Assembly (NCBI GenBank): GCA_016872175.1
Contig: VHBA01000025.1
Location: 1-35,806, forward strand
Source: Sphingomonadales bacterium
GTDB lineage: Bacteria > Bacteroidota > Bacteroidia > NS11-12g > UBA955
Length of the DNA stretch: 35,806 nt
Reading direction: 5' to 3'
Position 1 is the stretch's first letter, and each line of letters begins with the position of its first letter. A program made the translations under genes and the position numbers. The notes beneath the pieces are model-generated. The model was not told where the DNA came from. It ran no database searches and saw nothing but the letters and a program-made list of their open reading frames with translations. Below, piece after piece: positions 7 to 9,646 of this stretch.

Positions 7-80
7 TGCACGCGTAGGGATTCGAACCCCAAACCTTCTGATCCGTAGTCAGATGCTCTATCCAATTGAGCTACGCATGC
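7..80 (-). tRNA. tRNA-Arg (anticodon ACG)
   Basis: The minus strand folds into a full cloverleaf of 74 nt. The 7-bp acceptor stem is GCATGCG/CGCGTGC (one G-U pair), the D stem is GCTC/GAGC, the anticodon stem is TCTGA/TCAGA around loop CTACGGA, and the T arm has loop TTCGAAT. The anticodon is ACG, read as Arg (CGN codons, with A34 normally edited to inosine). The discriminator base is A, and CCA is not encoded because ACTAAAG follows. A -7/-33 promoter lies about 35 bp upstream on the same strand. Confidence 0.97.
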
Positions 81-5598: not shown

Positions 5599-5610
5599 CG
5601 TTGTTGTGTG

Positions 5611-6867
5611 TTACAGGCCCAGCACGTTTTCTTCGGGGCGTTTACCGTCCAGCAGCATTTCGGGGTTTTCCAGCAGGGTTTTCACGCGAACCAGGAAACT
5701 CACGCTTTCGCGGCCGTCGATGATGCGGTGGTCGTAGCTGAGGGCTAAATACATCATGGGGCGGATGACGATTTGTCCGTTTTCCACCACAGGGCGTTCC
5801 ACAATGTTGTGCATGCCCAGAATACCGCTTTGGGGCGGGTTGATGATGGGTGTGCTCATCATGCTGCCGAAAACGCCGCCATTGGTGATGGTGAAGGTGC
5901 CTCCGGTCATTTCTTCAATGCTGAGCTTATTGTCGCGGGCTTTGGTAGCCAGGCGTTTTACTTCGGTTTCTATTTCGGCCAGTCTCAGGTTTTGGGCGCT
6001 GCGGATAACGGGCACCACCAGGCCTTTGGGGGCACTCACGGCAATGCTGATGTCGCAATAGTCGTGGTACACGATTTCTTCGCCATCGATGCTGGCGTTC
6101 ACGGCGGGCCAGTCTTGCAGGGCAATGCACACGGCGCGGGTAAAGAAGCTCATGAAGCCCAGCCCAATGCCGAATTTCTCTTCAAAGTTCTTTTTGTATT
6201 TGGCCCTCAAATCCATGATGGGCTTCATATTCACCTCGTTGAACGTGGTGAGCATGGCGGTTTCGTTTTTAGCGGCTACCAGGCGTTTGCTCAGGGTTTT
6301 GCGCAGGTTGCTCATCTTCTCGCGGCGGGCATTTCTGCCGGTGGCTTTGGTAGTGCCTGCTTTGTTTACACCCAGTTTCACGATGGCTTCCAGGGCATCC
6401 AGCTTGGTGATTTTGCCATTGCTGCCGGTACCGGAAACGCTTTCGGGGGCAATGCCGTATTCGGCGAGCAGCTGGGCTGCCACGGGTGATATAAGCACAT
6501 TGGAAGCCACGGGAGCCGCTGCGGGAGCGGGCTTGGCTTCGGTTTTTGGTTTTTCTACAGCGGCGGGCGCTTTGGGTTGTTCGGGAGCAGCTTTTGGAGC
6601 GGCTGCTTTGGCTTCGGCGGGTCTGGCAGCCTCGGTATTGATTACTGCGATTACGCTGCCCACGGGGATGGTATCGCCCACGTTGCCGATGAGTTTTTCA
6701 ATAACGCCGGCTTTTTCGGCGTTCACTTCAAAGGTTGCTTTGTCGCTTTCAAATTCTGCGATGGGCTGATCCATTTCCACCCATTCACCTTCTTTTTTCA
6801 GCCAGTTGGCAATGGTTACTTCGCTAACCGATTCGCCGGGGGCCGGTACTTTGATTTCTAAAGCCAT
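5611..6867 (-). CDS. odhB: 2-oxoglutarate dehydrogenase E2 (dihydrolipoyl succinyltransferase)
   Basis: The 418-aa E2 component transfers succinyl from lipoyl to CoA in the TCA cycle. It has one N-terminal lipoyl domain with the lipoylated lysine in [10 protein letters not shown] (Lys43), an Ala/Pro/Lys-rich linker, a peripheral subunit-binding domain ([14 protein letters not shown]...[10 protein letters not shown]) and the catalytic domain ending in [12 protein letters not shown] (His380, Asp384). Single-lipoyl architecture and the [13 protein letters not shown] segment fit the succinyl- rather than acetyl-transferase. The frame is open back to 6909, but ATG 6867 gives the canonical [13 protein letters not shown] start and lies 8 nt after a TAACTTTG promoter element. 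The E1 gene (odhA) usually found next to odhB is absent on either side. Confidence 0.95.
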
Positions 6868-6875
6868 TGATAGGG

Positions 6876-6883
6876 CAAAGTTA
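6876..6883 (-). promoter_or_regulatory. -7 promoter element of odhB
   Basis: On the minus strand TAACTTTG (6883 to 6876) matches TAnnTTTG and ends 8 nt before the odhB ATG. A TTTG at 6910-6907 could be the -33 element, although its 23-nt spacer is slightly long. It implies that odhB has its own promoter. Confidence 0.5.
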
Positions 6884-7129
6884 GGGAATTTTTGTTGTGG
6901 CGTAAACAAAGAATGGCGGGGGTATGAAAGTGTTCAAAAAACAGGTCGGGTTACGTTTGGAGATTTTTGGGGTGGGTTGTATTATTGTGAGAGGAAACCC
7001 AACGGAGTTGCACTAAAAATAAAACCATAGGCGAAAATATATGCAATTTTGTTGCGCCAATAGGGAAGTTATTTGCCCAAAGAAATCAATAAATGTAAAT
7101 CGAATTAAACTAACACTGAGATATAGGCC

Positions 7130-8206
7130 ATGAAAAGAACAGTAATAACAGGAACTGGGAGTTATATCCCACAAATAATTAAAACAAATAGAGATTTTAC
7201 GGTCCATGATTTCTTTGATGAAAATAAAACAAGAATAGAAATAGATCCATCAATTGTTGTTGAGAAATTCAGACAAATTACAGGCATTATGGAGAGGCGT
7301 TATGCCAGTAAAGAAATGAATGCCTCCGATATTGGAACAGTTGCTGCAAAAATATCTATTGAAGAGAGTAAAATAGATATAGAAACATTGGGGCAAATTA
7401 TTGTTGCACACAATTTTGGGAATGTAGTTAAACATACAATTCAGACAGATATTTTGCCAGCACTCGCCTCTAGAATAAAGCATAACCTTAAGATTAAAAA
7501 TCCGTATTGCGTTCCCTACGACATTTTATTTGGATGCCCTGGATGGATTCAAGGATTGATTCAAGCAGACGCATTTATGAAAGCAGGGGTTTCCGAAAAA
7601 TGTCTAGTGGTAGGTACTGAAACATTAAGCAGAGTTTTGGATGTTTACGATAGAGATAGTATGATTTTTTCTGATGGCGCAGGAGCTTGTGTTGTTGAAT
7701 ACCAAGAAGTAGACGATTATAATGGAAGTGGGATATTAAGTACTGCAATTCAGTCGCACTGTGGAGAAGAAGTGGACTACTTATATTTAGGAGAATCTAA
7801 TTTCCCACATTCCGATCCTCGGTTACGTTACATAAAGATGAAAGGTAGGAAAATATATGAATATGCAATAAAGTATGTTCCTTCTGCGATGAAAGAATGT
7901 CTTAACAAAGCAGGTTTAGAAATCAGTGATGTAAGTATGATATTTATTCATCAAGCGAATGAAAAACTGGATGAAGCAATAATTAAAGCTTTTTATAAGT
8001 CTAACGGGGTTTCCAGTGTGCCAGACAATATTTTACCAATGAATATTCACAAACTTGGAAATAGTTCTGTAGCAACGGTCCCTACTCTTTTTGATATGGT
8101 TAGAAAGGGGCGCCTTGAAGGATTTTCCTTGAAGCCTGGTGATATAGTTTTATTAGCCTCTGTTGGTGCAGGGATGAATATTAATGCTGTATGCTATAAA
8201 ATTTAA
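7130..8206 (+). CDS. FabH-like 3-oxoacyl-ACP synthase III family protein
   Basis: The 358-aa protein has thiolase-fold ketoacyl synthase III features. The N-terminus is VITGTGSYIP, the candidate nucleophile Cys136 is in LFGCPGWIQG, His274 in IFIHQAN and Asn311 in KLGNSSVATVP, so the Cys-His-Asn triad is complete. FSDGAGACVVE (180-190) is also family-typical. It is longer than housekeeping FabH (about 320-330 aa), with insertions near 20-40 and 100-125. It may prime fatty-acid synthesis or make a specialised acyl or secondary-metabolite product. It stands alone, with no ACP, FabD or FabF nearby. Its AT-rich codons (AAA, ATA, AGA, TTA) differ strongly from its neighbours, pointing to recent acquisition. 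The exact substrate is unknown. Confidence 0.88.
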   Translation: MKRTVITGTGSYIPQIIKTNRDFTVHDFFDENKTRIEIDPSIVVEKFRQITGIMERRYASKEMNASDIGTVAAKISIEESKIDIETLGQIIVAHNFGNVVKHTIQTDILPALASRIKHNLKIKNPYCVPYDILFGCPGWIQGLIQADAFMKAGVSEKCLVVGTETLSRVLDVYDRDSMIFSDGAGACVVEYQEVDDYNGSGILSTAIQSHCGEEVDYLYLGESNFPHSDPRLRYIKMKGRKIYEYAIKYVPSAMKECLNKAGLEISDVSMIFIHQANEKLDEAIIKAFYKSNGVSSVPDNILPMNIHKLGNSSVATVPTLFDMVRKGRLEGFSLKPGDIVLLASVGAGMNINAVCYKI

Positions 8207-8283
8207 TTTATCCTTACAATAATAATTTTAGCATTAGCAAGTTGAAATCACCAATATATTTTGGAGGTTAAATATTTTGCACA

Positions 8284-8301
8284 TTTTTAAAATTTTAAAA
8301 A
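8284..8301. repeat. 18-bp perfect AT-only palindrome
   Basis: T5A4T4A5 reads the same on both strands. It lies in the AT-rich flank between the FabH-like gene and the DUF2851 gene. It has no GC pairs, so it is a weak hairpin and not a convincing terminator, and chance is likely in such AT-rich sequence. Confidence 0.4.
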
Positions 8302-8353
8302 CAAATAAAAATCTACATAAAAAACTATCTTGCCACGTAAAACCAAACCCACC

Positions 8354-9646
8354 ATGCAGGAGCACTTTTTGCATTTTCTTTGGCAATACGGGCTGTTTGA
8401 CACCCAAAACCTAAGCACCACCGACGGACTTGCCATGTGTCCCGATTACCGGGGTGTGCACAATGCCAACAGCGGCCCCGATTTCTCTGAAGCCCGCATT
8501 CGCATTGGAAATATGGATTGGGTGGGGCAGGTGGAAATACACATAAACGCCTCCGACTGGCTGAAACACAACCACCAAACCGACAAAGCCTACGACAATG
8601 TAATCCTGCATGTGGTACTCTACCACGATACGGATATTTTCCGCACGGATGGCTCCCTCATTCCTTGCCTGGAACTGCGCAACCGCATTCCCGCGGGCTA
8701 CCTGCAAACCTGGCAAACCCTCAGCCAGAGTTTGGCCTCCGTGCCATGCGAACCGCATCATCCGCATACTCAAAGTGCGGCCGTGCTGAGCATGAAACAC
8801 CGCGCACTTGCCGAACGTATGTGGCAAAAAGCAGGCAGGGTGCTTTCCATGGGCAATGCTACCCAGTTTCACTGGGAAGAGATGCTTTACAAACTCATGG
8901 CGCGCTACCTGGGAAGGTTGGTAAACGGCGATGCCATGGAATCCCTTACCAGCGCTGTGCCTTACAACCTCGTTCAAAAATACCGCTACAATGCCCAACA
9001 AAAGCAGGCATTGCTGTTCGGGCAAAGCGGACTGCTCACCGCCGCACACAAAGATGATTACGCCAAACAGCTTTTTGCTGAATACCGCTTTCTGCAAAAG
9101 AAACACAACCTGCAGCCGCTGCCGGCATCCGTATGGAAGTTTGGCCGATTGAGGCCCCCGAATTTTCCCACCCTGCGCATCGCGCAGTTATCGGCCATGC
9201 TGGAGCAAACCGGCCTTTTCCAGGCCATGATGGAATTGGATTCGGTTGGAGAACTCAAATGCTTGCTGCGTCAAAAGCCCCATCCCTACTGGGAAACCCA
9301 CTACCGCTTTGATTACGAATGTGCGCAACGCTCCGCCACCGCCGGCGATGATACCCTGGAAGGCCTTATCATCAATGCTATTCTGCCTTTGCGGTTTGCC
9401 TATGCCCAATACCACAACGATACGGCGCTACAGGAAAAAGCCCTGGATTTGCTGTCGGCCTTGCCGCCCGAATCGAACAAAATAACCCGCAGCTGGCAGG
9501 AGATGGGTTTTGAAAACAACAATGCCTATGACAGTCAGTCTTTATTGGGTTTGCAGCAATTGTACTGCGAAAAGCGCCGTTGCCTGGAATGCAGCATTGG
9601 TCAGCGCCTAATTAGAAATGAGGAAAAATTCCCTGCATTGAAATAG
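8354..9646 (+). CDS. DUF2851 family protein
   Basis: The 430-aa protein belongs to the DUF2851 family, which is common in Bacteroidota and has no established function. Recognisable parts are the N-terminal MQEHFLHFLWQYGLFD, then GVHNANSGPDFSEARI, WVGQVEIHINASDWLKH and YDNVILHVVLYHD, and a C-terminal CX2(R)RCLECSIG segment (YCEKRRCLECSIG) that may bind metal. No signal peptide is seen, so it is probably cytoplasmic. The frame is also open from TTG 8330, but ATG 8354 gives the conserved start. TTG 8330 lies in a degenerate -7-like TATCTTG (8326-8332), which argues against it as a start codon. The gene begins just outside the AT-rich island and has normal local composition. Confidence 0.85.
   Translation: MQEHFLHFLWQYGLFDTQNLSTTDGLAMCPDYRGVHNANSGPDFSEARIRIGNMDWVGQVEIHINASDWLKHNHQTDKAYDNVILHVVLYHDTDIFRTDGSLIPCLELRNRIPAGYLQTWQTLSQSLASVPCEPHHPHTQSAAVLSMKHRALAERMWQKAGRVLSMGNATQFHWEEMLYKLMARYLGRLVNGDAMESLTSAVPYNLVQKYRYNAQQKQALLFGQSGLLTAAHKDDYAKQLFAEYRFLQKKHNLQPLPASVWKFGRLRPPNFPTLRIAQLSAMLEQTGLFQAMMELDSVGELKCLLRQKPHPYWETHYRFDYECAQRSATAGDDTLEGLIINAILPLRFAYAQYHNDTALQEKALDLLSALPPESNKITRSWQEMGFENNNAYDSQSLLGLQQLYCEKRRCLECSIGQRLIRNEEKFPALK

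Follow-up and report, generated by a model that had tools for sequence, protein, structure and literature searches.

The window, by which we mean the whole stretch of 35,806 nucleotides analysed here, carries one foreign gene, of the ketoacyl-ACP synthase III (KAS III) type, between two native genes. The best explanation overall, to which we give a probability of roughly 0.6, is a transferred enzyme of the KAS III fold that would perform a condensation feeding FAS II, with a less firmly held role in the cold. The features, in window coordinates, are as follows.

5611-6867, minus strand: odhB, for 2-oxoglutarate dehydrogenase E2; native gene on the left (543.7 bits with NCBIfam NF004309, cut-off 449)
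6868-7062, no strand: native odhB upstream region, aligning with G004, G001 (to 6987) and G005 (to 6948)
7063-8307, no strand: foreign insert of about 1.25 kb with one gene; congener flanks are unmatched between these points, and the ends are placed to within about ±10 bases
7130-8206, plus strand: the lone gene of KAS III type, encoding 358 aa (above the cut-offs of Pfam PF08545 and PF08541)
7535-7537, plus strand: codon of the catalytic Cys136, GCPGW motif, aligned to E. coli C112 (Cys in 104/104 rows)
7949-7951, plus strand: codon of the catalytic His274, HQANEK motif, aligned to E. coli H244 (His in 104/104 rows)
8060-8062, plus strand: codon of the catalytic Asn311, GNSSVAT motif, aligned to E. 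coli N274 (Asn in 104/104 rows)
8354-9646, plus strand: DUF2851 gene, native right neighbour (PF11013, 426 bits; 82% identical in G003)

Class of the window protein and extent of its subfamily

The window protein matched PF08545 and PF08541 at 66.4 and 52.3 bits (cut-offs of 24 and 26.6), and its AlphaFold2 model (pLDDT 93.5) had the FabH fold, matching 2ebd_A with Z 44.7 and an rmsd of 1.6 A over 308 residues. Cys136, His274 and Asn311 aligned with Cys112, His244 and Asn274 of E. coli FabH and were invariant in the family alignment (104/104 rows). With both domains, the triad and a FabH-type predicted fold, the protein is, by sequence and model, a member of the KAS III superfamily (thiolase fold). 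It shares these three traits with the FabH proteins of Aquifex (2ebd) and E. coli (1hn9), but it is 31-34% identical to them when aligned by structure, is about 40 residues longer than the E. coli enzyme and falls under both NCBIfam FabH cut-offs (TIGR00747, 182.6 against 292.1; NF006829, 194.9 against 249). Unlike FabH, its gene does not adjoin plsX or fabD. Vibrio cholerae FabH2 (4wzu, 4x9k and 5kp2, octanoyl-CoA structures), a named second KAS III, matched the fold with Z 43.3 and is 30% identical to the window protein; BioZ and PqsD also matched the model (Z 42.7 and 42.6).

Several positions differed from E. coli FabH throughout the family. R249 was replaced by K and I251 by D in 104/104 rows, F304 by V in 102/104, L248 by E in 100/104 and K214 by E in 97/104; the residue aligned with G306 was also replaced, and the position aligned with F87, which we take to limit the acyl pocket of FabH, was Leu, Val, Ile or Met in 104/104 rows. 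The position aligned with W32 was mainly V, E or I, the alignment being unsure there. The FabH of the same genome retains the E. coli letters at the compared sites, including W32, R249 and K214. We take R249 and K214 to help dock ACP, and W32, R249 and K214 to be CoA/ACP-docking residues; since sites aligned with docking residues are changed, the partner of the window protein could be a different one.

The NCBIfam DarB models did not match the window protein at E 0.001 and matched only 10 and 5 of the 48 members, weakly (best 1.8e-8), and the model PRK05963, presumably of BioZ type, gave 117 bits against a cut-off of 437. By sequence comparison, the window protein is placed as a lone member of a distinct, uncurated KAS III subfamily. 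A preliminary description of this DNA had called the enzyme specialised, which holds in the sense of a distinct subfamily and no further. Its other statements on the protein proved right, namely the intact Cys-His-Asn triad, the length greater than that of housekeeping FabH (358 aa against 317 in E. coli) and the absence of adjacent fatty-acid or polyketide partners, the neighbours being odhB and DUF2851. The count of FabH paralogues that it had proposed gave one further KAS III in the genome, the FabH (G000:C47), 30% identical to the window protein.

In a sample of the phylum (E 1e-60), the subfamily was present in 68/296 near-complete genomes and 35/140 genera. It was found in 71/147 genomes of the Chitinophagaceae-like family (that of G361, so taken as its member G195 yields the same protein as a Limnovirga soli locus) and in 98/100 genomes of the Weeksellaceae-like family (that of G081, so taken from its tree neighbour Empedobacter). 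A third, Flavobacteriaceae-like family (f6) was intermixed with named Flavobacteriaceae in the tree. Several genomes of the Weeksellaceae-like family (L188/L189 and similar) carried two subfamily copies, a near-universal one about 41-50% identical to the window protein and an extra one at about 51-56%, which sometimes adjoined a CSD gene. Three Bacteroidota plasmids also bear members. Two of these, from Spirosoma and Hymenobacter (WP_232563663.1 and WP_245127571.1), are 44-47.5% identical to the window protein over the full length and bear the generic RefSeq name 'ketoacyl-ACP synthase III' without a stated function; their neighbours differ from those of the window gene. Single-gene transfer is by itself ordinary. 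What is of note is that an enzyme which bears just this generic name on the three plasmids seen can now be given a role open to testing, in a subfamily that occurs in about a quarter of the sampled Bacteroidota genomes and in nearly all those of one family.

Proposed role and gene neighbourhoods

The likeliest chemistry, to judge from the active site, would be the loading of Cys136 with an acyl group, followed by a decarboxylative condensation with malonyl-ACP. Cys136 would take an acyl group from a thioester, His274 and Asn311 would support the decarboxylation of malonyl-ACP and the condensation to 3-ketoacyl-ACP, and the host FAS II would extend the 3-ketoacyl-ACP made by the window enzyme. 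That the extension would fall to the host FAS II would explain why no partner genes travel with the KAS gene.

A role in the cold was proposed because, in one large family, the KAS gene repeatedly adjoins genes of the CSD, RRM and DEAD-box types. In the Chitinophagaceae-like family, such a gene lay within 1.5 kb of KAS in 23/70 loci, against an expected share of about 1%; the 39 genes concerned are not independent hits, since CSD, RRM and DEAD genes cluster together. Of 72 places, 70 were used, G492 and G486 being dropped as partial. The control, forty pre-set 20-kb stretches from 20 genomes of the same family, held 2 such genes in 800 kb. As the CSD and RRM profiles came from few rows, some of them KAS neighbours, the base rate was repeated with Pfam models over 10 whole genomes, which held 12 CSD, 45 RRM and 37 DEAD genes (94 in about 47 Mb), again about 1% per locus. 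CSD genes occur about once per genome, yet they stood beside KAS in 12/70 loci. The binomial p of 2e-27 assumes independent loci and is not literal. Gene order varied: eight arrangements were counted for the nearest hits, and presence changed at least 13 times on the KAS tree. The Pfam models CSD, RRM_1 and DEAD were confirmed on example neighbours. RecQ-like helicases (L021, L035, L079, L202, L203, L212) had matched the first DEAD profile and were excluded by a rebuilt one (E <=1e-80). An earlier comparison of near and far ORFs (12/445 against 4/1062, p 2e-4) had relied on hits picked by hand, and the profile count took its place.

Linked loci beyond the 70 were L038, L045, L066, L074, L207, L251 (the same place as L188), L252, L259 and L261. 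The share was 4/30 in the Weeksellaceae-like family, 2/29 in the phylum-wide set, 4/68 among named loci (two of the four being Chitinophagaceae) and 0/27 in the Flavobacteriaceae-like family, while 47/70 Chitinophagaceae-like loci had no such link. No cold-shock genes were seen beside KAS, either in the window itself or in the gene's own clade (L012-L016), most of whose loci lie on short or truncated contigs. Because the link is weak outside the Chitinophagaceae-like family, we infer a cold role for the subfamily and only at a further remove for the window gene.

Our tentative proposal, which we hold slightly more likely to be wrong than right, is a cold-linked condensing enzyme feeding the housekeeping fatty-acid pathway and adjusting membrane lipids in the cold. 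It is conceivable, if rather doubtful, that this second KAS III works with the CSD, RRM and DEAD-box RNA chaperones and remodels membrane fatty acids when the temperature falls; if so, a single gene neighbourhood would join the response to cold at the level of RNA with that of the membrane. We are equally hesitant about such a cold-shock enzyme being near-universal in one family and having spread elsewhere by single-gene transfer and plasmids. With a cold link of this kind, Bacteroidota would have a branch of fatty-acid initiation reserved for the cold. In Listeria, according to one study, FabH is the main determinant of membrane fatty acids and the anteiso/iso ratio rises in the cold (PMC5013041); this FabH is the housekeeping enzyme, whereas the window gene is a separate, extra one. 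Another article (PMC5372230) names the DEAD-box helicase CsdA and CspA among cold-shock proteins. Among the matches listed, our search of open-licence papers surfaced nothing on the subfamily or on a cold branch of fatty-acid initiation in Bacteroidota.

The enzyme might instead be a second FabH that widens the choice of starter unit to branched or longer acyl-CoA, the cold neighbourhood being an accident of the layout of one family. The FabH fold and triad, the aliphatic residue or Met at the F87-aligned position and the lack of any cold link in the Flavobacteriaceae-like family are all in keeping with this. An accident would, however, hardly produce linkage in 23/70 loci, spread over eight nearest-gene arrangements and changing at least 13 times on the tree, and we consider this explanation unlikely.

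An enzyme of a secondary pathway outside FAS, condensing or transferring acyl groups as in the dialkylresorcinol, quinolone, olefin or biotin types, seems improbable to us. The substitutions at R249, I251, K214 and F304 and the fold matches to BioZ and PqsD would suit it, and so would a few of the neighbourhoods. In L033 (4012-9737, Taishania) and L032, the KAS gene adjoins a cluster of ammonia-lyase, methyltransferase, SDR, ketosynthase, ACP and acyltransferase genes, which resembles those for pigments or aryl lipids, the names being judged from sequence. In four genomes of the same order as the window (L003, L004, L006, L007), an HMG-CoA-synthase-like gene lies about 22 bases downstream of KAS, and the two possibly form an operon. 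No such partner was conserved across the subfamily, though, and the DarB and PRK05963 scores given above also speak against this explanation. Clustering the neighbours of the family loci revealed no conserved FAS partner but lineage-specific housekeeping genes (GcvP, PheT, a sorted secreted protein); in the Flavobacteriaceae-like loci, KAS stood by GcvP or other housekeeping genes. Short ORFs beside L015, L016, L038 and L045, of a size expected for ACP or dehydratase, did not read as such.

In 15/70 loci (L201, L234, L235, L237, L239, L242-L245, L281, L282, L292, L294, L302, L306), the KAS and cold-shock genes were also accompanied by an uncharacterised protein (about 84 aa), encoded mostly upstream and on the same strand. 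One example, L038:9732-9980, had no Pfam match.

A single foreign gene in the odhB-DUF2851 intergenic region

The left flank aligned with the congener G004 at 89.7% over window positions 5602-7060, the right flank was homologous to the congener G002 from 8315, and a joint alignment set the ends of the insert near 7062 and 8308. The foreign part is thus about 1.25 kb long and holds a single gene, within the intergenic region of odhB and DUF2851. The odhB protein is 92-93% identical in the congeners G003, G004 and G005 (in G003 over its first 162 residues, up to a contig end). The DUF2851 ORF opens at a TTG at 8330, and homology to G003 begins at the ATG at 8354.

The GC content of the KAS gene is 0.352, against 0.475 for the whole window, and its GC3 is 0.254, against 0.645 for odhB and 0.623 for DUF2851. 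All of the eight 1077-bp segments with the lowest GC on the contig (0.342-0.353) overlap the gene; away from the insert, the lowest value was 0.400 and the mean 0.478. Within the insert, GC was 0.32 upstream of the gene, 0.35 in it and 0.19 downstream. The AT-rich island with one gene reported by the preliminary description was therefore borne out by these values, and a foreign segment does lie in the interval that it gave, 6960-8330; the true extent is about 7063-8307, and 6960-7062 is native. Its remark that no mobile element was visible also agrees with our search, in which no transposase, integrase or terminal repeats were seen at the insert. The insert contained no further ORF of at least 100 aa and was not bounded by a repeat pair. 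A mobile element or target-site duplication was rejected, as the repeat search gave only short AT-rich pairs, none of them flanking the insert.

Comparison of the odhB-DUF2851 interval among relatives, as that description had suggested, gave three genomes without the insert. In the congener G003, odhB and DUF2851 stand head-to-head about 170 bases apart and the KAS gene is absent; this empty site is not base-exact because the interval of G003 has itself diverged. Two genomes from other genera, G013 and G007, showed the same adjacency without KAS. Overall, the KAS gene was present at 0/29 DUF2851 loci of relatives, and 3/29 showed the odhB-DUF2851 adjacency, most of the 29 having a flank of only about 1.5 kb with other neighbours showing. 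In G004 and G005, odhB and DUF2851 are on separate contigs, while G002 yielded no orthologue of odhB.

An assembly artefact, in which a fragment of another organism was joined into a draft contig, is very improbable. The host is indeed a draft genome of 91 contigs, and both best homologues of the protein sit near contig ends, but both flanks are native, belong to one ancestral intergenic region and align with congeners up to the junctions.

At the place of the KAS insert, the congener G002 has, upstream of its DUF2851 gene, a nucleotidyltransferase/HEPN-like pair (L136:2312-2954; assigned to these families by sequence). Given this pair, insertions may tend to occur in this interval. The sole Rfam match in the window was a tRNA at 7-80 (minus strand).

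Origin of the gene

The subfamily was carried by 0/6 congeners, 2/29 same-family genomes and 5/22 other genomes of the order. The best homologues of the window protein, L012 and L013, are 84% and 83% identical to it and come from genomes with a local GC of 0.33. For FabH, used as a yardstick, identity is 97% and 96% in the congeners G003 and G005, 77% in G031, of the same family, and 65% in both the L012 and the L013 genome. In G031 the order is reversed relative to L012 and L013, KAS being 51% identical. The odhB protein is 57% identical in the genome of L013 (G059), and the genome of L012 yielded no orthologue. BLASTN homology to L013 spans just the gene (7129-8206).

In a careful tree of 80 rows, which omitted 27 rows of a 107-row set, the window gene fell not with its two same-family rows but in a six-row clade with L012-L016 (support 100/99), five proteins from other, AT-rich lineages. 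Its grouping with the same-family L005 and L008 was rejected mildly (AU p 0.04, a long branch being involved). Against L012 and L013, pS was 0.69, which says that the exact donor is, by this measure, unsampled, and pN/pS was 0.14, which by the same measure shows a gene kept under purifying selection. These comparisons give good support to a recent single-gene acquisition, the donor being an AT-rich member of the Bacteroidota akin to the genomes of L012 and L013. The horizontal acquisition put forward in the preliminary description thus agrees with the absence from congeners, the empty sites, the higher identity of KAS than of FabH in 33%-GC genomes and the phylogeny that it had called for; the vertical synteny at equally low GC that it had named as contrary evidence was looked for and was not what we found in relatives. 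That an old gene was inherited vertically, lost by the congeners and left with low GC by chance is scarcely credible, for although the wide occurrence of the subfamily in the phylum (68/296) makes losses plausible, 84% identity for KAS against 65% for FabH, the donor-like GC and the empty site in a congener and two other genera speak against it.

Carriage by phages was rejected as the origin of the subfamily, the 21 matches in phage records all being below 60% identity (the eight listed at 25-30%, in unannotated records), as was carriage by viruses, the viral contigs having given 2 matches at 26-27%; no subfamily member was found in the phage records and viral contigs searched.

Three records in the locus set appear to be misnamed. 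L026 (CP034120.1, 'Glaciecola amylolytica' THG-3.7) has the Fluviicola gene order at the KAS locus, and its ribosomal protein S12 matches that of the Fluviicola loci L024 and L030 exactly; it is therefore probably a genome from the Bacteroidota filed under the name of a gammaproteobacterium. L027 and L036, from 'Sphingomonadales' MAGs, show the SDR-KAS-PheT order common to Chitinophagaceae loci and group there in the tree, and their names are probably wrong.
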